This document shows positions 19,902 through 63,045 of a stretch of DNA of 64,000 bases, piece after piece. The position numbers and the translations under genes are program-made. Where the stretch lies: contig NW_001865039.1 of NCBI RefSeq assembly GCF_000002865.3, positions 2,357,315 through 2,421,314 on the forward strand. The letters run 5' to 3'. Origin of the DNA: Monosiga brevicollis MX1. Taxonomy: Eukaryota > Opisthokonta > Choanoflagellata > Craspedida > Salpingoecidae. Each line of letters begins with the position of its first letter. Positions within the stretch are counted from its first letter, which is position 1. The notes beneath the pieces were generated by a model that ran no database searches, was not told the origin of the DNA, and saw only the letters and a list, made by a program, of their open reading frames with translations.

Positions 19902-20015
19902 GTGGGCCTTGATGATTTCAACTGACAACAGGCAAGGTCGGCAGAGCAGGCCAGGTGCTGGTCGCTCGATGGCTAACGCGGGCAATGTTGAATAGGTCCT
20001 GAAACCGTCGGTGGC

Positions 20016-21338
20016 ATGGTCCGCATCCTGAATGGCACGGCAACTATCCCTAGCGAAGGGGCAAATGGCTCTGAGCCCACGGCCGCTGGGGCAGAAGACA
20101 AAGCACCTGCATCCGAGGCAGAACTTGAACCCACTACTGAAGATTCCGCTACGGAAAGTGAGGTCGTGAATGACGAAACTCCTGCCCTTGAGCGCCGAGC
20201 CGCTGGGGCAGAAGACAAAGCACCTGCATCCGAGGCAGAACTTGAACCCACTACTGAAGATTCCGCTACGGAAAGCGAGGTCGTGAATGACGAAACTCCT
20301 GCCCTTGAGCCAGCAAAGGGGGAAGAACCTGTCCCCGATGGTGAAGCTGGACAAGTCGGCGATCTGAAACCATCCACCCTGGAAGTTGAGCCAGCCGAGA
20401 GCGAGGACAATGCTTCACAGAGAGCCACAAGCAATTCCGAACCATCTGTGCTCGACGAATCCGCGTTTTCCCTAGACGATGATACGACAGCTGAAGTTGG
20501 AGCAACTTCTCCCAATGGCAAGCTCGAGCCCCCGGTTGAAGTTGATGCTGATGTTGATGAGGCTACCGCAGCCATTGACACGACACCTGCAACTCCTTCA
20601 GCCGAGGCCGCAGATACAGACGCTTACGCAAGCGAGGTGATTGCTGAGCCCGAGAGCGTAGCGTCTCCAGAAGCCTCGCATTTAATACCAAAGCCAGCAG
20701 CCGTGATGGAAGACGTGGAACGCGACAGGGCTGAGCAAGTGTTCGCCGACTGGCTCGAAGCCATGCGAGCTCACATGCAGCAGGATCATCTCCGTGTTCT
20801 AGATTTATTCCGCGAGTGTGATGTCAATGGCGACGGGCGCCTATCAGCAGACGAGTTGCGACAGTTTTTGACGACCGCTCACCTACCAATGTCCAACGAG
20901 GATGTGACGTGCGTAATGGGCGTTTTGGACGAGGATGGTTCCGGCCTGATTGACTACCACGAGTTTGCCCAAAAGGTTTATCGACGTCGCTACCCCGCTA
21001 CCGAGAGCCGTCGCAGCTCAGCGTCATCCACCACAGCTCCTGAAGCTCGAAGTGCACCTTCTGCTCGGCAGTCTGCCGGTGAAACTGCGCTCAACAAACT
21101 ACTCAAATACTTCCAAGCCCATCCGGCGGTTCAACAACAATTTGTTGACGAGATCCGCGCCAAGGACTCAACCGAGCAGACCGGGGCTGTTTCGCGCCAA
21201 GCCTTTCGGTCCATCGTGAGAAAATTGGAGGGCGCCCAAGTAAGCATACGCGATGCCAACGCTATGATTGCCTATTTAGACCCAGACAACACTATGAAGG
21301 TCGTCTATGAAGAGCTTGCTCCCTTTACCCAGGCATGA
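20016..21338 (+). CDS. Acidic EF-hand protein, possibly the C-terminal half of COG8
   Basis: Uninterrupted frame of 440 aa from the ATG, or from 19996 if spliced to COG8 exon 14 (total 983 aa). Residues 1-230 are Glu/Ala/Pro/Ser-rich and disordered, with a 39-residue direct duplication. Residues about 256-330 form an EF-hand pair: loop 1 DVNGDGRLSADE and loop 2 DEDGSGLIDYHE have all expected calcium ligands. A further EF-like segment near the end (YLDPDNTMKVVYEE) is degenerate. The frame opens after an in-frame TGA just upstream, and the distance from the alternative COG8 stop is only about 115 bases, short for two separate genes. Human COG8 also ends in an acidic Pro/Glu tail, but without EF-hands. 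Whether this is one gene or two needs transcript data. Confidence 0.8.
   Translation: MVRILNGTATIPSEGANGSEPTAAGAEDKAPASEAELEPTTEDSATESEVVNDETPALERRAAGAEDKAPASEAELEPTTEDSATESEVVNDETPALEPAKGEEPVPDGEAGQVGDLKPSTLEVEPAESEDNASQRATSNSEPSVLDESAFSLDDDTTAEVGATSPNGKLEPPVEVDADVDEATAAIDTTPATPSAEAADTDAYASEVIAEPESVASPEASHLIPKPAAVMEDVERDRAEQVFADWLEAMRAHMQQDHLRVLDLFRECDVNGDGRLSADELRQFLTTAHLPMSNEDVTCVMGVLDEDGSGLIDYHEFAQKVYRRRYPATESRRSSASSTTAPEARSAPSARQSAGETALNKLLKYFQAHPAVQQQFVDEIRAKDSTEQTGAVSRQAFRSIVRKLEGAQVSIRDANAMIAYLDPDNTMKVVYEELAPFTQA
20082..20309 (+). repeat. Direct tandem duplication, 117-base period
   Basis: Two adjacent copies of the coding segment starting AGAEDKAPASEAE. The second begins at 20199. 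Over about 111 aligned bases I see one synonymous difference (AGT versus AGC), so the duplication is recent or homogenised. Confidence 0.93.
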
Positions 21339-28262: not shown

Positions 28263-30772
28263 ACCGAAATATGAGCTCTCAAGAAGCGATGTGCGACAGT
28301 CAGATGCAGTTCTCTCAATAAATAGAGGCGTGTGGCTTCAACTCTGCTGAGCGCACCTTCTTCAGAGTCACTTTAATACGATGCTTAGAGCCCTTGAGTT
28401 TCTCATTGGACAACACACGACCCTTGACCTGAATGAAAGCAAGTGGGCTGTGAGGAGTCATGCACATGCGCAAGCCTCAGCCGTGAGACAAGACGTCAAA
28501 CAGACACACCTTGTCGCCAGCTTTGAATTTTTTCTCCGGGTGCGTGAGCATGACATCGGCAAGGTGTTCCGAGGGAACGCGAGCTTAATAAAGGGTTTCG
28601 TGTCATGAGCCACAGAAACTAGCAACATTGGCACGGCACTCCAAAGCCATCCTTGAGTGAGCGACACACCTTGAATGCCCGACGCCAACTCAATCACCAT
28701 GCCTGAAGGGATGAGCGAGAGTACCGAACCCTGCACGAGAAGGCCAACTTCAATGCTCTAAGGAAAGGAAGACAGGCGGTGTACCAGAGCAATAACAATC
28801 ACATGCAATGGGATCAGAAAGGAAGGAACTGACCCAGGTCCAGCAACGCCAGCCAGCAACGCAAGCTGCCTGGATGTGCACGACAAACCTCAGCTGCGAG
28901 AAAAGGGACCTTCAAATCCTTTGGTGCGAAAGAGAAGGAGTAGATGCCGTCAAAAGGCTGCTGGGCCACGACACGTCCCTCGTGCGCCGTCCCACGGCGG
29001 AAGGACTTGGGCACTGTCTCCACATGCTCTTCAAGCAGGCGCGAGATGTGGGCAAACCCCAGCACTTCAGGGGTATCTTCCTCGGCTGGTACGCCACGAG
29101 CATGGCCTGGTGCAGGCTGGCCGGCGGCCAAAACACCAAAAGCTTGATCCACAAAGCGCACGTGGCAGGAAGGCAAGCGAGTCCCAATGGGTAGAGGCAA
29201 TGTGCAGTCGTCGATTTGCAAATGTGGCTGACGCAAGGAAGCCAAAATGACCTTGTTGGCGAGATCGATGAAAATGACGCGAGCCGTCAGGGTCTGGCCC
29301 ACCGTGTAGAGCTGTTCCGTAGTCTTCTTTTCAGTTGGCAATTGATCAAAGTGCACATGATGAATGCCAATGGAGAAGCCGCCGCTTTGCAGCACCAAGC
29401 CCTTGGCGTGAACCTGTTGCACCTTGCCGCGCACTTGGAGACCAGGACGAAGTGTGGACATGACTGCCTCATTGGTTGAGAGCTCAGCGGTGCGCAGCTT
29501 GGAAATGTTGATTGAGACTTGGACGACGCGAGTGGAGCCAGCCGTGGTGCCAGTTGTGACGCAGAACAGGGGTTCACCGGGGACAAGATTACGGCCAAGC
29601 TGCTTGACGTGCAACTTGGCAGCCTTGGTAGGCAGGAAGCCTTGAGCCCCGTCAATGCCAAGATCCACGACATAACCGTGATCTTCAACGCTTTGCACGC
29701 AAGCCGGTAGCAGGCGCCCCTGACAGTGAGCGCACGGAGGGGACCAATGGCGCGAATCCATGAGTGTCAGTGAGAGTAGTTGAGGGGTTTGCGAGCGATG
29801 CGCCTGGTTCAAGTCGATGCAAGAAAGGGGTCAGGCGATTGCCTACCTTTTGCAAGATATCATCCACATCCAAGTTGGCATGGATCAGGCGTGGGTCTGT
29901 CGTAAGCAGCAAGCGTTTGTCCTCTTTGGCTTTGACAGCACAGACAAGCTGTTGCCCGACATGAAAGAGCCGTGACATGGAGACAACAATCTCGTCGGAA
30001 GCCTGGCTACTTTGATTGGCCTGCTGTTCCTGCTCCTGCTCCTGCTCTGACTCTTCATCCTCTGAAGCACTGGCGGCTTCGGCATCTTCGGCGTCAGCGG
30101 CCTTGCCACGAAGATAGGCAACGTAGTGCGGCGAGACGTCGCTCAGTTGCAGCGTGCCCTGCAAACCATGGGGAAGGCTAATCTGCACGGCAAAGTCGGC
30201 AACCGACTTGACGCAACCCATCAAGAGCTGACCAACGACGATGCGCTGCAAATGCCAACCCATGCCAATCAACCACCCAACCAACAACATGCGCATCAGA
30301 TCAAAGGAGAGCCAAGCAAACCAGTCCACTCCCTTTCCGCATAGCGCCGTGAAGGCTCGTTTCTGCAGGCCCTCAGTACGCACCTTGCCGGTGAGCGGCT
30401 CGACCAGACTGGCCGTGCCCGATGCACTGGTTGTGCTTTCTGAAGTCTTGCGGGAACGAGAAGCCTTTGGTGTGCCAGCTTTACTGCCCTTGCCATTCGG
30501 CTTGCCCGAGCGACCCTTGGCGCGCTTGGATTGAGGCTCAACACTATCCGTCTGCGTGGAGGAGCCGGTATCCGGTGAAAGCGACCAGGACCAGAAGGCG
30601 TGAGCACACATTGCCGAGCGTTGAGCCTAAACCTCAACGGGGTTGACAAGGGCGCAGGTCATACATTCTCACTAAAAAGCACATCTTTTTCAGCTTGATG
30701 GCGCAGCTGGCGCTTCTCGGCAGCCGAGAGCAGCCGCTGCCCCCCGCGCGGGAAAGCGTCCTCGTCTGCCAT
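21766..30772 (-). CDS. PDCD11: rRNA processing protein RRP5 (PDCD11 homologue)
   Basis: I trace 29 exons: 30772-30665, 30551-30384, 30245-29847, 29719-28889, 28757-28670, 28583-28510, 28428-28357, 28214-28092, 27998-27921, 27817-27705, 27607-27455, 27320-27233, 27115-26993, 26860-26681, 26603-26472, 26363-26054, 25939-25806, 25698-25384, 25267-25136, 25041-24918, 24773-24610, 24507-24292, 24190-24122, 24037-23960, 23847-23671, 23543-23030, 22863-22616, 22514-22259 and 22154-21766. They sum to 1951 aa, near human PDCD11 (about 1870). RRP5 is a nucleolar pre-rRNA binding protein needed for both 18S and 5.8S rRNA. The N-terminus has the FPRGG motif. About a dozen S1 repeats follow (for example [20 protein letters not shown]). 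An acidic, DE-rich exon (23543-23030) precedes C-terminal HAT/TPR-like repeats such as [20 protein letters not shown]. The intron after exon 9 uses a GC donor. Confidence 0.95.
28232..28259. repeat. Poly(A) tract (28 A on + strand) in an RRP5 intron
   Basis: Reads as poly(U) in the RRP5 sense and lies 17 bases before the acceptor of exon 8. Confidence 0.97.
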
Positions 30773-37330: not shown

Positions 37331-37374
<44 letters not shown>

Positions 37375-38063: not shown

Positions 38064-38222
38064 ATGGCACGGATGGGAGACAAGCTTGTCCTTGTCTTGT
38101 GTGGCCTCTTCCTACTTGCTACTGTCACCCGCGCCGTGCCTGTGCGCGACCGTCGCTTTCTCTCAATCAGCATTGACTTGAGTGTCCCTTTGGATATTCT
38201 ATTTCCCGGTGATCCCACAACA

Positions 38223-38284
<62 letters not shown>

Positions 38285-41012
38285 GGCAGCAACAACGGCA
38301 CTTCCCTCCACGACCAGCACCAGTGATACCTCCCCTGTTGTGGACCCTCCCACCACCACCACCACCACCACCACCACAACGACAACGACAACAACGACAA
38401 CGACAACAACGACAACGACAACGACAGCTCCTCCGAGCTTTTCATGTTGGTACAACATCACCTGGGATCGATTCATTGGCACCGGCATTGAGCTGAGCAT
38501 CCTCAAGCAAGTCGTGGCCGATCGGACCTTATTTCAGATTGGAACCAGCCTCAATGTCTCTTTTTCTTGGCTGATGATTCAGTCGTTTGATATTGTGCCC
38601 ATCACGGCCACGACTGGCGTTTCCTACCCCCGCCTGGTGACCAACTTTGACAACCAAACAATTCGTGACCTCTTCCAAGCTTACATCGATGCCTCAGGTG
38701 AAATCAGCGTCGTCCTTGGCGATACTTTGACCATCCCCGCGGGGTCCATGGAAACTCTGCCTTCCTCTGCCAATCCCACCACGCAAGGGCCCAACACTTC
38801 CGACCCAGGCAACGATGTCCCCACTGCTGATTCGCTTGCCAGCTGGCTTCTCACCATCGTCGTGGTGGCTGCTGCCGTTGTTCTTCTCTTCGGCGTTGGC
38901 TGGGCCGTCAAGAGTCATAGCTCCACGAGCTCCAAAAGTAACCCGCACTTGTCCGAAGGTGGTCTTACCCCCTTGCACATGGCGGTCATTCAACATGATC
39001 CCACGAGCTTGCAGGCCCTCTTTGGTGCTTCCCAACAAAGCGTCGACTTGGTCCCTGACATCCCCATGGCCAACCTCTCCTCTTCTTGGGACCAAGGAAC
39101 CCGTTCCTCCATCTCCTCCCTCCAATATCCATACTCAGCCGCCACTCACACCACCAGTTTGGACAGCTACACCAGCGAAGCGGCGATGGCGCCTCATGGC
39201 ATGCCAGCTACAATCCTCACACCAGGTGGGCTTGCGCGGTACCAAAATCCTTGTAGTAGTTGGTGTTGTTTGAGTTGTTCGAGTTGTTGGGGTTGTTTGA
39301 GTTGTTTGAGTTGTCGTCATTGCTGGCGTCACCGCTATCATCGTGATCGTAGCTTATTACCCTCGGGCATCTCTTTTCGTTGAATGCCTCTCACTTTCTG
39401 GCCTAACTTCTGTCTTGCTTGTAATCACCCACAGCACAACGACTGCAACTTGATCAACGCGATGGTGCTGGTTGGACGGCTTTAGCCTGGGCTGTCCAGG
39501 CTCGCAACGGCGAGCTCATGCACCAACTGCTCTCCCTGGGAGCCGATCCAAACATTCCCAACAAGGATCAGCAGTCACCTCTGCATCTGGCCGTGCTTGT
39601 GAACGCTGATCGGCGCATTATAGAAATGCTGGTAGCCGCAGGTGCCAATATCGACGCCATGGACGCCGAGGTATCTTCAAAGCCCTGCTACATTTTAGTT
39701 GACATTCGCCTGCCCTTGCCGCGCTCATTCTGCCGACGTTCTTGCTGATAGATGAATACACCATTGATACACGCTTGCCGACATGGCCGCTTGGACGTGG
39801 TTCGCCTCTTCTGTCAGCTCAAGTGCACCCCTAGTCTGGGAGACAGTCGTGGCATGACGGCGGCCATGCACGCGGTAGTCCAAGATCAACACCAGGTATT
39901 AAGTCATCTTCTTAAGACGGACCCTACGAGCATCAACACCCAGGATGCCAAGGGCTGGTCGCTGCTGCATTGGGCCCTGGCCATGGGCTGCAACGAATGT
40001 GTTCGCCTCTTGTGCCGAGTACCGGGTCTCAACACTTTGCTCACAACCAAGAACCGGGACAATATATTCCACTTTGCCGCCAAACATGGCGACTTGGAGG
40101 TGAGAGCCGCGTTGAGCTGTGGATATTTTAGCCGAGGCTGTTACAGTCCAGCATCGAGCAAAAGCGTCAATGCGTCACCTCGCACTTCACGCTGCCTCAT
40201 TGTTTTTTTTTTTTTTTTTTTCTCTTTGCCTTGCTCAACCCTTTACCAGATCATCACAGACCTGATACACTTTTTGCAAACCCCTGAGGCACGAGATTCA
40301 GTCAAGGGCTACACCATTGATGTTTCGGAGATGCTTACCAGCGCCAACTTGGAGGACAGGACACCACGCGACTTGGCAGAAGACAGCGGCAACCCGAAAG
40401 CGGCGGCCTGGATCTCAGGCATGATTCTCCAGCTTCGGCACGGTATGACCGCTTGCCGTGTGATTCCCTCTTTTCGTATCTTTCAGAAAATGGTGTTTTG
40501 GCGCTTCGTTTGCCTTGTTTGAGCCGCGGACGCTCATGCCGTTTTTCGAAACGCGAACTTTGGCCGCAGGTGGAGCCAGCTCGACCAAGCTGTCACCTGC
40601 GACGCACTCGTCGGCATCACCCATGCTGTCTCCGATTTCCCATAGCTCAGCCGTTATGTCACCCATGAATTCGGATGAGGATGTAGCTCGACGCCTAGGT
40701 TCGCCACCAAACCGACCCTCTGGCTGGGCCCTCGCAGCTCAACCCGCTGCTCAACCCGCTGCTCGTGAGCGCGAGAGAGACAGCTCAGAGTCAGAGGACC
40801 CGGCTCGCATGGAGAAACGCTCAGCACAACAACAGCGCCGTCGTGACCGGCGGCGCGTGTACATGCGCAAGCGCCGTGCGGACGAGCGTTTGGAACTGGA
40901 CTCCATGTCTGCTCAAGTTGAAGCCCTGCGTTCGGCCAATGCCGACCTGGAAAAGATTTGCCAGGTTCTTCGCGGCGAGGCCGACATGCTTCGTCGCCAG
41001 ATTCGAAGCTAG
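38064..41012 (+). CDS. Predicted type I membrane protein with intracellular ankyrin repeats and C-terminal bZIP
   Basis: Exons 38064-39225, 39435-39670, 39752-40099, 40250-40442 and 40570-41012 join in phase (1, 0, 0, 1) to give 793 aa. In order: a signal peptide (hydrophobic LVLVLCGLFLLATV, likely cut after TRA), two threonine tracts at about residues 51-68 and 94-121, a Cys-poor ectodomain of about 120 residues with sequons NIT, NVS and NQT, and one membrane helix (residues about 261-283, WLLTIVVVAAAVVLLFGVGW). Next come six or so ankyrin repeats starting GGLTPLHMAV, SPLHLAVLVNADRRIIEMLV, NTPLIHACRHGRLDVVRLF, WSLLHWALAMG and ending LEDRTPRDLAEDSGN, a Ser/Pro linker, and a basic region plus zipper (residues 728-793). 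The zipper has Leu or Met every seventh residue for six heptads. By topology it could be a membrane-tethered transcription factor released by proteolysis (inference). No EGF or LNR repeat is present. Confidence 0.85.
38217..38427 (+). repeat. Threonine-coding trinucleotide tracts (ACG/ACA/ACC)n
   Basis: Two microsatellite-like blocks in the ectodomain of the ankyrin-bZIP protein, split by a unique Ser/Pro-rich segment. They give mucin-like Thr runs. All repeat codons stay Thr despite mixed third bases, so the amino acid rather than the DNA repeat appears conserved. Confidence 0.9.
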
Positions 41013-42374
41013 TTCAGCTTGACCATCTTCGAACTGGATTAGGTATATTCAATCCCCTGGTCTCGACACAATCACTATTGAGACGCATCTGGTCCCTTGG
41101 TGTATGCAAGAGTCGACCGCCACATACGGCTTCTTGGCCGTGCATGGCCATACTATTATGACGGTGATTTTATTTGTTTTGTTTAGTTTTGTTTTGTTCT
41201 TGTCCCCGCCTCTCTTACTTGACTGCCCGTCGCCATGCGCTTCTCCTTCTTTCTCTGTTCCTTTCCCCTCATATTCTTCAGCCAATGCTAAATACTTGGG
41301 AAGAAAGCGATCATGGTTGTTGCTGTTGTGCAAGCTGGCTGAATGTTGTGGTCTCTGCACACAGGCGATTATGTGCCTCCCAAGGAGGCTTTCTACTTTG
41401 TATGTTGTTGTATCGGAAAACTGGGTTTTCGCCATACTATGTCTGTTCGTTCTTGCTTTCCGTGGTCTGTGACCTCTGATTCCCGCACATCTCGATGATG
41501 AGTATTTTGTCGCCTTCCTGACCCTCTCGTCGACTATCAATTGACCGTTGGCCTCTCAAGAGGCAGACAAAAGTATCGCTCGTCTCAGTTTTTCTTCTTT
41601 CCATCGTGTGTGCTCCACACGGGCACGTGAGGTTCGAATATGAGTACCACATTTTGCGCGCTGAGACTTCTCTTATTATTTGGTTTCCGAGAGTGCAGCT
41701 GGCTCATCTGCACACACACACACACACACACCACGTTGTGGTCTTTTGAATTGGTGCAATCTTGATTGTATTGCACAATCCTCGAACCAGCGATGTCAGA
41801 CGGTCTTGGCCTTTTGTCTTTTGGTCCTGCTTAAACTTGACGTCTCGATCTCTGTTTTATCTCTTGTGGGGGCTTGAAATTAACGTTGCTGTATTTTGCG
41901 ACAGCGGTACGTTCTCTGATTGCGACCACGCCGCCCGCCCAAAAAAAAAAAAAAAAAAAAAAGGAACACGCTCACTGGATGTGCTGAGACGGCAATGGGT
42001 GATGCGGATCACTGCAAAACGCGGCGGTTGGCCTTGAAGAAGAAGCATTCACTCACTCGCTTCTGGTGCGTGGAACACGGGTTATATCATTGTCGCAGGA
42101 ACTGTGTGCCTCCCTCACACAGCTGGTCGAGTCGAGAAGCGTGATTGCGCCTTGACAGGTCAGTTGACGTGGGCGCGCAGCACCCGCGATCGCCGCCGCC
42201 TCTGCACCGACCGAGTCCCGATCATTCATGACTAGCAGCCTTCAATCCATCTATCGACCTGCCAATCCTGGTTTCCATTCACACACATACAGCACATGCT
42301 CGCCATCACCAACACCCAACGCCGCTTGACTCTGGCTCACGACCTCTTGACGCACTGCTAGAGCCACCGCCGCC
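41013..42374. other. Spacer between two + strand genes
   Basis: About 1.36 kb. It contains a short CA repeat (41711-41731) and 22 A at 41941-41962. It holds the 3' end of the ankyrin-bZIP gene and the promoter of SHMT-GcvT. No coding frame is supported. Confidence 0.45.
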
Positions 42375-45300
42375 ATGTCGAGCGCCCTGCGCATGGCCCC
42401 GCGGGCTCCAGCAGCCCTGCTGGTTGGACGCCAACAAGCGCGTACCTTTTTTGCCTACCAAAAGACGAGCCCAGCAGTGACGTCGCTTGTGGAACAGGCC
42501 GTGCGCGACGAAACTCGTCGTCAACGTGACGAGCTGGTCCTCATCCCATCCGAGTCGATTTGCTACCCCGAGTGCGAGAAGGTCTTGGCATCTCCTTTTG
42601 GCAACATCTACGCTGAAGGACAGCCCGATTTGCGTCTCAGCCGCGTATCCCCCGACCTGGCCACGGACCGTGAATACTTTCATGCCTGGCATCGCCGCCT
42701 TAGCGATGGCCGCTTCTACCGCGGTTGCAATGAGAGCGACCGCGTCGAGCTCCTCGCCAAACACTATGTGGCCAACACCTTTGCCCGCCTGGAGGGCGGC
42801 ATCTCGGCCGATCGTATCCATGCCAACGTCCAGGCCCTTTCTGGCTCCCCTGCCAACCTCGCCATCTACGCTGGTCTGCTCCGCCCAGGAGACCGCCTTC
42901 TCACGCTTCACCTCTCGCACGGTGGTCACCTCTCCCATGGCTCCCCCTTCAACGTGTCTGGCAAGCTCTATGCTACCACCCAGTACCAGATCGACCCCAA
43001 CTCACGCAAGCTTGACTACGATGCCATTGCTCGCTTGGCCCAGGAGAAGCGCCCTGCCATGATTGTGGGTGGTGCCTCAGCCTACCCTTTTGACTGGGAC
43101 TGGGCTCGACTCCGCGAGATTGCCGATGACGTTGGAGCCTTGCTCCATGCTGATGTTTGCCATCTGGCTGGCCTCATCATTGGCGGTCAGCTCCAGAACC
43201 CTTTGCCCTATGCTGACACAGTCATGTTCACCACCCACAAGACCCTCATGGGCCCCCGAGGTGCCGTCATCGTGACGAAGGACAAAGATATGGCCCGCCG
43301 CATCGATAATGCCGTCTTCCCCGGCATGCAGGGTGGCCCCCACATGAACAGCATTGCCGGCATTGCCCGCATGTTTGAGCTCATTGACCATCACTACGAC
43401 GACTACAAGGAGCTTCAACGTCTGGTTGTGCACAACTCCAAGGTCTTTGCCGATGCATTGGTGTCGCAAGGCTTCTCGCTCGAGTACGGCGGTACCGAAA
43501 ACCACATGGTGCTGATCGACCTCAAGAAGTACCGCGTACGTATTTGCAGACCCCAAAACTCTCAAATGAAAACTGCATACCCATCACCGTGTGTGTGTGT
43601 GTGTGTCTGGTCCTTCCAGCTCGACTCACATCCTCTTTTGGACTTTGAATAGGTGGCCGATGGTTGTCCTCTGGACGGTGAGACGGCGTCCCGTCTGCTC
43701 GAGAATGTTGGCATTATTGTCAACAAGGTGTGTACCCACATGGAATGAATGTCCACGCTTACGAGCTTTTTTTTTTTTTTTGAATAGAAGGCAGGAACAA
43801 ATCTCACCTGGCCCACGTCGTTGTATAGAACACTCTGCCTGGCGATGAGAATGCTTCCGACTCTAGCGGTTTGCGTGTGGCTACCCCTTGGTTGACGCAG
43901 CGCGGTGTCACTGATGCCCAAATCCACGAGCTGGCCACTATCATGCAGTGAGTTGCCGACGCTGAGCCATGCACCACCCTGCTTTGGTGTATTTCTGCTT
44001 GTGGCAGTGAAGTCTCGTCCTTCTGGTGCCCTCGTACTGTGCTTGCAAACGACGGTGATGATATTTTGACTCGAAACCCGCACTGCTTCAAATAGCGAGC
44101 TCCTGTCCTCCGCCAACGGCTTTCAGGTGTGGGCTCCCTCGGGTGACGAGAAGTGCCGCGCCCGCGTTCCCTTCCAAGTCTTGCGTGACAGCCGCGCCAA
44201 GGTCAGTGACCACCTCATTCTGAGTGCCGTGCTATCGATCGTGCGCCCTGCTCGCGCTATCCCCCCCCNNNNNNNNNNNNNNNNNNNNNNNNNNNNNNNN
44301 NNNNNNNNNNNNNNNNNNTCCTCGATCCCACTGCTTGTTTACAGGTTCGCGCCTTGGCGCGCTCGCTGCCCTATCCCAAGCTGGACGAGTCCAAGTACAG
44401 CGACGCCGAGTTCGACCTGCTGAAGGACGCGGCTCACATCAATGGTCTGACCGCCATCACCGTGCGTGGCGAAAAGGCCAAGCTGGGCCTGGACCAACTT
44501 CTGACTGCAGACGTGCTTCCTCTCGAGAAGAATGGTGTGGTGACCAGCCGCATGTATTTGGCTGATGGCACGGAGCTTTCCGATGTGAGTCCACGGAAGG
44601 GCACCGTATTATGGTCGTCACATTCACATTCGCAACTCTTATCATGATCCACGTCTGCACGGCTCATGCCCGTGTGTCACACTCTTTATGCAGGTGCATG
44701 TTGCATACGTCGGTCGCCGGGACTCCATTGCATCCGGCCCCAACGGCGAGGATGTTTTTGTGCTGTTTGCCCCCGATGCACAAGCTGATGCCGTGTTGGA
44801 ATGGATTGAAGCAGCTTCTGGTGAGTCCTTGTTCGACGCTCGTTCGCGCAGGCAGTGCCACATGCAAAAACATGCTGATGGACAGATTTGTCTGTGGCCA
44901 TGGTCCTTTCTGTGCGTCGTTTGAAGTCTCGATTTGTGGCTGTGTTTTTGTTCCTCTGTTTTGTTTCTATTTGTATTGGGGGTGACTGTTTTGGCCTCCC
45001 TCTTTCCCTTCTTTTTTCTTCCTTTTTTTTTTCTTCTTACTTCTTAGCCTCCTCCCTATGAGATAGTGGCCATTGCGCTCGCGCTTTCTCATGTCTCTGC
45101 GTATGGCATCATTATATTTTTTTTAGATGGTTACGTCTCGCTGTCTAAGCGCGACCCGTACATGAAGGTGGACGGCCCCTTGGCGGTCCATGCCTGCACA
45201 GAAGCTAACCTGCCCACCGAAGTGGCAGATGCCATTCGTGCCAAGAGTGGTTTTGCCGATGTGCAGATCGTTCACGACAAACCCTTCTTCGTGGGCCAAG

Positions 45301-60502: not shown

Positions 60503-61440
60503 GGCTTTGATCACTTCCAGGCCACGAGACTCAAATCACCACCAACACCCTCAACCCCAGCCACCAGTCGCGCCGACCAAGACGTCAAGACGGGTACGCT
60601 CGCTTTCAGCCAACAGCACGCCGTCAAAAATTGTCGTTTGCTTGCTGCTGTTGTTGCTGTTGTTGCTGCGTCATCAAGCAACCGCGCACGTGGAACGACC
60701 ACCTCACTGCGTTCGCCTTCTGATATTTAATTTGTTATCATCACTGATTTCGCTCCTGGTAAATTTGTGTTGTTGTTCGTGTTGAGTGGCAAATAATCAT
60801 ATGGCAGCCGGTGTTTTAGGACTTGCTCTGCCGTCCCGGCAGCCATACGCCTCAGATTGGGTTCCTGGCCAGCCTGCAATAATTTTTGCCAATTTTCTGT
60901 TGTGACCGTCTTGAGTCTCACTTCTCCGTGAGGTCTGTACGACCATGAAACACCGTTTGCGGTCTGTTCCTTGCCGAGGCTTTTTGTCAACATCTAACAA
61001 AGCCATCTGCTCTGATCTGAAACAAGACGTGAGCTCAAAACTCAAATGGCAGCGCACCATAAGTCTCAGTCGACGACGAAGACACGGCGACGAGAAAGAC
61101 ATCTCCGAACATCAAGGTACCGTCGTCGTCTACTCATCCTTCTTTCTGTACTCCCCTCCCCGTTCGGGGCGGGGTGGGCCCACTGCCGATGGTGAGCACT
61201 TTAGGATTTCTCGTGGTACATTTGTCAGAAAGAACAAAGCACCTCACACGCAATTCTTAAAAAACATTTTCTTCTTTTTTTTGCTTCTTCTGCTTTTGAA
61301 GAGCCAACACGGGCTGGAGACGGCAGCGCGTCGGGCCATCGTCTCGAGGAGGAGTCAGAGGGGTAACGGGGCCAGGTACTTGGCTGTTGGTTGAAGCATT
61401 AGTGGCACGTCTGTTGGCTGCCGATTGTAAACTGTACACG
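60503..61440. promoter_or_regulatory. Divergent spacer between TYW1 and ESS2
   Basis: About 940 bases with no supported coding frame. A TTG/TTGC-rich patch lies at 60648-60672. Promoters and leaders of both genes must be here. Confidence 0.45.
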
Positions 61441-63045
61441 ATGGCTGACAGCCAGGGTGGCGCAAAGGGCACTGAGGCTGCGGCAGCCGAGCGCCGGCTT
61501 GTGGTGCGACGGGCTACTGGTGAGCTGGCCGTGTTTCGCGCCCCCGAGGGCCTGCCACGACGCAAGCCCAAGACAGTCTTGGAGGAGGACGACTACGTTG
61601 CCGCACTGGAAAAGATTATTGAGCGTGACTTTTATCCCCAACTCCCTCAGCTGCGAGCACAGGAAGAGTATTTGCAGGCTTTGGAAGCCAACGATTTTGA
61701 ACGTTTGCGGGACATTTCTCGCCGCTACGGCACCCCCGGGGTAGGCAGCACGGCCAGCTCGCGCCGAACCACACCTAGTAGGGCAGGCGGATCCTTTGAG
61801 ACGCCTCTACCCGGCGCACGTCAGGATGCTGCCTCTCCTTGGAGCCGTGCCGGCACGCCCGGCATGCGCAGCGGGAGCGACTTGCACCTGCCTGGGGCTG
61901 AAGGCGGCACCGATGGTGCTGACAGTGTCAGCGCTGCTGGCAGCAATCGCAAGGCAGACGATAAACCCAGTGCGGATACCACTTTATCGCTGGACCGATT
62001 CCTGGACAAGTATACCTCCGAAGATAACGACTCGTTTGACCAGATTATTGAGCAGACCAACTTGCGCCTTCGAGCCCAGTTTGAGAGCCTCTTTGGGCGC
62101 GCAGAAGAGCAGGCACAGCGCCTGGCACTGACAGACGGTGACAAGGATGCCTACAAGTCTTACTTTCTCGACCATTGGCGTCACACCCCGCGCAATCAGC
62201 TCATGTGGGCGCCCTCCGAGAAGACCCCGACAGCCAAGGAACTGATTGCACTTTCAAAACGCAAGCAAAACGTTATTCAACACGCCAACACGCGCTTCAC
62301 TCGCGCTCCCTTTCCCACAACTGGCTCAAGTAACGGAACGAAGACTGGCACCAAGACGGGCGCCAGCCAACATGGCGTGGTCATTCTCCGAGACGATGGC
62401 AACAAACCTTCGGTGCACGCCCGCCACACACCGTCTAGCAGTACGGATGGGACGCCGGCTGTCAATGGCTACAAGTTTGTGGCCACCCCCTCGCCTGTGC
62501 CCGGCCAGGACTTGGATCCAGACCTGACTTGGGGTGAGATCGATGGGACACCATTCCGCCTGGATGCAGGGGATGTACCGCTGCAGTCGGGCCCAGCCTT
62601 TAACATACCCGAGCCCTCGGCACGCGACCAGCTTGGTCGTCGCCTGGCAGAGGACACGGCAGCCAAGCGTCGCAAGATGCAGCATGCCGCGCAGGCGCGC
62701 ACTCGTGCTGGCTCCGTCGAGCACTCCAGTCGACATACCCCGGCAGCCCGTCGCCTGGCATCAATGTCACCGGCCGCTCAGCAGCTTGCTCGACGCTTGG
62801 GCACCAACCGCTCGTCTTCCAGCTCCTTGAATTCTGCACTGCGGCGAGCTACGAGCTCGGCGGGCAACCGAGCACTTGGCACGCGCTCGACTCCGCGGGT
62901 GACCCCACGAGGCACCCCCTCCCTCCGAACGCCTCAGGGTACTCCGCGTGCTGACGCCAAACGACAGCACAGCAAGGATTCTGGACACGAAGCTGCGCCT
63001 GCAAGCTTGCCTACCGATAGCACGTTGACCGACAATCTGTTGTAG
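61441..63045 (+). CDS. ESS2: Splicing factor ESS2 (DGCR14/ES2 homologue), intronless
   Basis: Single open frame of 534 aa. ESS2 is a nuclear protein found in spliceosome C complexes. The diagnostic N-terminal region is present at residues about 43-95: VLEEDDYVAALEKIIERDFY, PQLRAQEEYLQALEANDFER and LRDISRRYGTP. Later family features are SLDRFLDKYTSEDNDSFDQI at about residue 180, the YFLDHWRHTPRNQLMW segment, and near the C-terminus the LTWGEIDGTPFRLD and SPAAQQLARRLG motifs, followed by TPR..TP repeats. The ATG at 61441 is the first in this frame. It is the only complete gene here that needs no intron, which is odd given the density around it and could mean retroposition or intron loss. Confidence 0.94.
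   Translation: MADSQGGAKGTEAAAAERRLVVRRATGELAVFRAPEGLPRRKPKTVLEEDDYVAALEKIIERDFYPQLPQLRAQEEYLQALEANDFERLRDISRRYGTPGVGSTASSRRTTPSRAGGSFETPLPGARQDAASPWSRAGTPGMRSGSDLHLPGAEGGTDGADSVSAAGSNRKADDKPSADTTLSLDRFLDKYTSEDNDSFDQIIEQTNLRLRAQFESLFGRAEEQAQRLALTDGDKDAYKSYFLDHWRHTPRNQLMWAPSEKTPTAKELIALSKRKQNVIQHANTRFTRAPFPTTGSSNGTKTGTKTGASQHGVVILRDDGNKPSVHARHTPSSSTDGTPAVNGYKFVATPSPVPGQDLDPDLTWGEIDGTPFRLDAGDVPLQSGPAFNIPEPSARDQLGRRLAEDTAAKRRKMQHAAQARTRAGSVEHSSRHTPAARRLASMSPAAQQLARRLGTNRSSSSSLNSALRRATSSAGNRALGTRSTPRVTPRGTPSLRTPQGTPRADAKRQHSKDSGHEAAPASLPTDSTLTDNLL

Follow-up and report, generated by a model that had tools for sequence, protein, structure and literature searches.

A predicted membrane-anchored ankyrin protein with a basic zipper-like tail, and two paralogs of the same layout, in the choanoflagellate Monosiga brevicollis

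The window analyzed here is a 64,000-nt stretch of the Monosiga brevicollis genome (G+C content 54.3%). On its forward strand, at positions 38064-41012, lies a gene whose five exons splice into one 793-residue frame according to exon borders and translation. All four introns are of the GT-AG type (209, 81, 150, and 127 nt), and G+C is 0.613 at third positions of the exons and 0.467 to 0.512 in the introns, where T accounts for 33-38% of bases. The gene is a real predicted gene for a membrane-anchored ankyrin protein with a basic zipper-like tail, and comprises the following features:

38064..39225, + strand: exon 1, with signal segment, ectodomain, membrane helix, and ankyrin start (open frame to a GT 5' splice site, phase 1)
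38064..38144, + strand: N-terminal hydrophobic signal segment, residues 1-27 (hydropathy peak; present in both paralogs)
38217..38426, + strand: Thr-rich stalk, residues 52-121 (from the translation)
38433..38813, + strand: remaining ectodomain, residues 124-250 (four N-glycosylation sequons, at 131, 164, 197, and 244)
38835..38891, + strand: membrane helix, residues 258-276 (Kyte-Doolittle mean 2.74)
38967..39038, + strand: residues 302-325, probably the first ankyrin half-repeat; a long loop comes next (weak Ank_5 match)
39435..39670, + strand: exon 2, ankyrin repeats (Pfam Ank families, splice sites)
39752..40099, + strand: exon 3, ankyrin repeats (Pfam Ank families; both intron borders kept in the C29 paralog)
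40250..40442, + strand: exon 4, end of the ankyrin block (homologous to exon 7 of the C29 paralog)
40570..41012, + strand: exon 5, Ser/Pro-rich linker, basic segment, zipper, and stop codon (frame; AlphaFold2 helix over residues 724-792)
40833..40889, + strand: basic segment with R-x-x-Y-M-R-x-R-R, residues 735-753 (YMR-x-RR core invariant in the three-gene alignment)
40905..41009, + strand: leucine zipper, residues 759-793 (d/a register)

Splice sites and the single frame bear out the coordinates, the five exons with matching phases, and the 793-residue length given in the initial annotation. Kyte-Doolittle hydropathy of the window protein peaks at residues 9-27 (mean 2.16), called a signal segment from hydropathy only, and at residues 258-276 (2.74). 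The ankyrin block matches Pfam Ank_2 with an E value of 3.2e-29, and an Ank_5 match over residues 302-325 (E 0.014; 16.2 bits, under the 27-bit cut-off) weakly suggests the half-repeat. Of the 82 residues in the linker preceding the basic segment, 17 are Ser and 10 are Pro. A TC-dinucleotide tract occupies window positions 37336-37372, ~0.7 kb 5' of the start codon. The Thr-rich stalk (38217-38426) is encoded by ACN trinucleotide runs (ACG, ACA, and ACC), and hence its length may differ among strains. Neighboring genes in the window are ordinary and encode an EF-hand protein (19992-21335, + strand), an S1/RRP5-type protein (28817-29830, - strand), a serine hydroxymethyltransferase (42351-43649, + strand), and an Es2 nuclear protein (61300-63042, + strand); a strong ankyrin match (C56:2427443-2427727, minus strand, E 2.8e-17) lies ~6 kb past the right end of the window.

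Residues 124-250 of the ectodomain matched no Pfam family at E ≤10. A SEA-like ferredoxin fold, suspected from the predicted strand pattern, found no support, and AlphaFold2 run without an alignment on residues 124-256 was uninformative (pLDDT 37.8). In the genome (39.5 Mb in 57 contigs, denoted by C-numbers), the only relatives of the ectodomain beyond itself were unconvincing matches at C34:553988 (E 0.018) and C56:218138 (E 0.059). The former, a weak match of the ectodomain/membrane-helix region (C34:553988-554245), sits within a 5401-codon open frame. When membrane segments were compared with the PDB, that of the window protein matched only TrwL at E ≤10 (E 0.14) and no Notch chain, and that of the C29 paralog (see below) had no matches. 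The segment of the C13 paralog matched just Notch1 (5kzo, E 0.95) and a designed protein (E 2.5), neither significant. A suspected likeness of the membrane segment to the Notch S3 site was not used as evidence.

Basic residues flank the cytosolic side of membrane helices (the positive-inside rule). The 15 residues before the helix contain no Lys or Arg in any of the three proteins, and the 15 after it contain two in the window protein and three and six in the paralogs. Together with the N-terminal signal, this asymmetry argues that the ankyrin-zipper part would be cytosolic, an orientation that we infer from hydropathy and charge. Two points count against this type I single-pass reading: the window protein carries only two Lys/Arg after its membrane helix, and the C29 protein has a second hydrophobic stretch (residues 132-150, mean 1.81).

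Comparison of the whole cytosolic part with the genome yielded 28 places at E ≤0.001, five of which were the window gene itself. The others included two exons just upstream of C29:478618, and C13:153031-154215, where the alignment covers the ankyrins and continues into the zipper. The C29 paralog (481852-478510, minus strand) has nine exons encoding 810 aa, with GT-AG borders at 8/8 introns. The C13 paralog (151647-154269) can be modeled as two exons (833 aa) or three (797 aa), the uncertainty lying in the third exon and a long low-complexity ectodomain. At both loci the encoded protein starts with a hydrophobic stretch and has a membrane helix ahead of the ankyrins, the same layout as in the window gene. 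At C13, one 509-codon open frame contains both the ankyrins and the zipper, making their join independent of intron prediction, while the join between membrane helix and ankyrins crosses an intron at all three loci, with matching phase each time.

Searches of the genome with the tails alone (E ≤10) also connected the three genes: the window tail found itself and C29:478618 (E 0.023), the C13 tail found itself and C29 (E 7.9e-4), and the C29 tail found itself, C13 (E 0.0021), the window gene (E 0.065), and C54:709796 (E 0.74). The last of these, a weak match (C54:709796-710002, minus strand), is a possible fourth family member. Identity between the window and C29 proteins is 89/249 positions in the ankyrins and 21/63 in the basic zipper; corresponding values are 56/237 and 20/63 for window and C13, and 51/236 and 27/67 for C29 and C13. 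Two of the four window introns (after residues 466 and 582) share an identical aligned column and phase with introns in C29, and C29 introns of the same phase (phase 1) lie 4 and 11 columns away from those after residues 387 and 646, where the alignment is gappy. Two diverged paralogs with the same order point to a family, not a one-off. They are the strongest new evidence, suggesting that the layout is more than chance, and the three genes are, on sequence grounds, a three-member family with conserved architecture in the M. brevicollis genome. Moreover, hydropathy, Pfam matches, and the three loci support the earlier proposal of one gene with a type I layout, in which the ankyrin block and basic zipper would lie on the inner side.

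In the window zipper, the d positions are Met759, Leu766, Leu773, Leu780, and Leu787, and the a positions are Val763, Asn770, Cys777, Ala784, and Ile791; the second a position is Asn in the window and C29 tails and Glu in that of C13. The residues 18, 25, 32, 39, and 46 positions past the place of the bZIP Asn are M,L,L,L,L, M,L,L,L,I, and M,L,L,L,L in the three genes, and eight residues past that place all three have Arg (Arg749 in the window protein). This d spacing and the Arg agree with the bZIP spacing in section 7 of PMC4736632, which for eukaryotic bZIPs gives residues 13, 21, 31, 38, 45, 52, and 59. Five d positions, and not the six heptads described initially, thus fit the bZIP spacing. 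For exon 5 of the window gene alone, AlphaFold2 predicted disorder followed by one helix over residues 724-792 (69 residues, 66 of them with pLDDT ≥90; block means of 96-99 starting at construct residue 81), although such an unbroken helix is not specific and any charged coiled coil could yield one.

Few stretches of the tail are as well conserved as the basic segment, whose YMR-x-RR core is invariant in the three genes. All three have Arg at the Asn place and Tyr-Met at the Ala-Ala place, and the N-x-x-A-A signature is therefore found in none (0/3), which confirms its reported absence from the basic region. According to section 7 of PMC4736632, departures at the bZIP Asn are only Gly (Giardia) and Cys (oomycetes). 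At E ≤10, neither the window tail nor that of C29 matched a Pfam bZIP model, the C13 tail matched bZIP_2 below the cut-off (E 0.08; 13.5 bits against 22.3), and PF00170 matched 35 places across the genome, none of them within the three family genes. In the PDB, a myosin fragment (E 0.012) precedes JunD and Jun (E 4.6 to 8.3) among matches to the window tail.

A scoring matrix built from 12 bZIPs of the same genome was used to compare each tail with 5000 of its own shuffles. Its score was reached by 86 (window), 1 (C29), and 188 (C13) whole-segment shuffles, and by 264, 5, and 347 blockwise shuffles, respectively. For the basic block alone the counts were 1183, 106, and 288 per 5000, so that the basic block of the window protein scored no better than shuffles. 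With the register left free, the matrix placed all three tails in the same register, although as homologs they are not independent. Alignment with hhalign also separated the alternatives poorly (81.9% for a bZIP set, 67.3% for a coiled-coil set), with only the zipper side of the three tails aligned. The bZIP set comprised 11 proteins hand-picked from PF00170 matches, and the six coiled coils were drawn from weaker PF00170 matches, which makes the control lean to bZIP. The DNA pattern for YMRxRR was not enriched in the genome (31 places, compared with 57 for a reversed control), and hence the motif alone is no proof, whereas its position behind the ankyrin exons is. Under the refuting condition set at the outset, that a profile search would score the C-terminus as ordinary coiled coil with no bZIP basic region, the outcome was mixed: the YMR-x-RR core and the exact zipper register stand in three genes, while Pfam bZIP models found nothing in the window tail and profiles hardly separated bZIPs from other coiled coils. 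We conclude that the tail is a probable zipper whose basic region either derives from bZIPs or mimics them but does not carry their defining signature. Calling the tail a bZIP is justified only in part, and its DNA binding is putative.

The tail could also be a dimerizing coiled coil, near the membrane or in the cytosol, in which case the protein would be a receptor or scaffold remaining membrane-bound and its basic patch would bind acidic lipids or partners and not DNA. Consistent with this, the best Pfam matches of the C29 tail are generic coiled coils (Rab11-FIP3, E 4e-4, below the cut-off), designed coiled coils top the 121 PDB chains matched by the three-gene profile (E 0.0036; HY5, 0.0091), and the base-reading Asn is missing in 3/3 genes. 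Nonetheless, the same profile matches GCN4 on DNA (1dgc, E 0.11) and C/EBP alpha (8k8c, E 0.23), with both matches extending through the basic side. A scaffold would need neither these basic-side matches nor a conserved basic segment whose spacing in the three genes is exactly that of bZIPs, and we regard the idea of a membrane-bound scaffold as possible but rather doubtful. The reading we prefer, in which a freed ankyrin-zipper part would act in the nucleus, can be set against known systems.

Notch receptors resemble the window protein in having a signal segment, an ectodomain, one membrane helix, and cytosolic ankyrin repeats, and their first ankyrin repeat is interrupted, as it probably is in the window protein. 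However, Notch is not known to carry a basic zipper after the ankyrins and reaches DNA through CSL, which its RAM segment binds, while the window protein has such a zipper and lacks recognizable EGF, Notch/LNR, and NOD domains (none among seven Pfam families at E ≤10; EGF and LNR also absent from the C29 and C13 proteins at E ≤1). Its ankyrin block best matches generic ankyrins in the PDB, with Notch absent from the best 60 of 421 matches. The resemblance to Notch in the initial annotation hence holds for the order of membrane helix and ankyrins and not for the remaining domains, and, judged by these matches, the window protein is not a Notch. A Notch-like gene of M. brevicollis with a signal peptide, a membrane helix, ankyrins, one EGF, and two LNR has been described (Gazave 2009, PMC2770060); it shares the first three with the window gene, and a zipper goes unmentioned in the available portion of that paper. 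The choanoflagellate Mylnosiga fluctuans has a Notch of canonical order, and the term "bZIP" does not occur in the available text (PMC6040629).

ATF6, CREB3/CREB3L, and Nrf1 are similar in that a single chain unites a membrane anchor with a zipper domain of the DNA-binding type, but their basic region is canonical. In these proteins the bZIP precedes the membrane segment, and no ankyrin repeats are known. Yeast Mga2/Spt23 are dimeric, signal-released, membrane-tethered transcription factors with ankyrin repeats, but carry an IPT domain instead of a zipper and, according to the domain list of a legend, a membrane helix after the ankyrins (PMC8480995). The fungal bANK factors ToxE and Apf2 combine a bZIP-type basic region with ankyrins, yet the basic region is N-terminal, four ankyrin repeats are C-terminal, and there is no zipper; Apf2 is nuclear, and a membrane helix goes unmentioned in the part of the source covering these factors (PMC4109984). 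The window protein has the reverse order and a zipper, and so differs from bANK factors. Its tail is akin to the atypical bZIPs Zhangfei/SMILE and CHOP in retaining a zipper where the base-reading Asn is absent. These are not known as ankyrin proteins or as membrane-tethered. They have lost the Asn, kept the zipper, dimerize, and act via partners (PMC9917820). In the accessible parts of two surveys, one of membrane-bound regulators names Monosiga for MYRF (PMC12724719), and one of bZIPs includes M. brevicollis without the words "ankyrin" or "transmembrane" occurring (PMC4736632). Our search of PMC literature found no family with the order membrane helix, ankyrins, and zipper, in agreement with the earlier statement that none is described; a member may be listed in a supplementary gene table.

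We propose that the three proteins form a type I single-pass family whose freed cytosolic ankyrin-zipper part acts in the nucleus as a dimer, an account to which we assign an even chance. The ectodomain would face the outside or the ER lumen, and the ankyrin repeats and basic zipper the cytosol. A stimulus would lead to shedding and to cleavage in or near the membrane, for which presenilin is the obvious candidate enzyme; the freed fragment might enter the nucleus via its own basic, Arg-rich, import-like stretch and dimerize through the zipper. The dimer could then act on genes either with its own divergent basic region on DNA or as a partner of the cell's ordinary bZIPs. This series of putative steps (shedding, presenilin cleavage, import, and dimer action) would be the most economical account, with release from the membrane being presumptive and DNA binding even more so. 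Profile searches of the genome detected presenilin (six pieces at C23:230879-232621, together 208.7 bits), an M50 (site-2-protease-like) protease (C53:1330455-1330799, E 2.9e-12), and a CSL DNA-binding domain (C49:404240-404623, E 1.3e-31). Presenilin-model matches below the cut-off were also seen at C56:2305325-2305657 and C27:426975-427316, which may be signal-peptide-peptidase relatives.

Zhangfei/SMILE, which lacks the Asn, is reported not to bind DNA as a homodimer and to work through partners (PMC9917820), and action through a partner bZIP would therefore be at least as likely as direct reading of DNA. The more specific proposal of a one-component Notch-like receptor family, in which the freed dimer would read DNA via a new basic signature, R-x-x-Y-M-R-x-R-R instead of N-x-x-A-A-x-x-x-R, without a CSL-type partner, is weakened because the basic region is altered, and we consider it tentative, well short of an even prospect.

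The fragment may instead be freed by the M50 protease after an S1P-like cut in the ER or Golgi, as for ATF6 and SREBP, or by the ubiquitin-proteasome route, as for Mga2, and not by presenilin. The M50 match at C53:1330455 (E 2.9e-12) is in keeping with such a release, and Mga2 likewise joins ankyrins, a membrane helix, and dimerization (PMC8480995). However, only a single M50 match was found, with a stop inside the searched frame, and the type I layout and short Thr-rich ectodomain fit a sheddase and presenilin. To our knowledge, moreover, site-2 protease substrates are all type II or hairpin proteins, and we judge this route of release unlikely. That the gene model is wrong and the membrane-ankyrin exons and zipper exon belong to two transcripts is highly improbable: the exon 5 frame does have an upstream ATG (40536) after exon 4, and exon 4 read onward meets a stop, but the same order recurs at three loci, the C13 ankyrins and zipper share one frame, and intron positions are conserved with C29.

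Membrane-tethered transcription factors are known, and Notch is a cut receptor that steers genes but needs a separate DNA-binding partner. Choanoflagellates are close relatives of animals. The architecture is real and conserved, and under the preferred account of a freed, dimeric ankyrin-zipper fragment it would be a variant of the membrane-tethered regulator kind, its layout resembling a receptor combined with a gene regulator in a single predicted protein. A family uniting ectodomain, ankyrins, and zipper in the same chain would represent a second way of signaling from contact to nucleus, in a choanoflagellate. Even without DNA binding, the combination of a receptor layout with an Asn-less bZIP-like dimerizer would directly test the purpose of that region. 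Elsewhere in the genome, C56:793250-793387 encodes a segment that resembles a bZIP and contains HNARMAKLNREKKKAYIAELE; it falls below the PF00170 threshold and is reminiscent of the atypical Zhangfei type.
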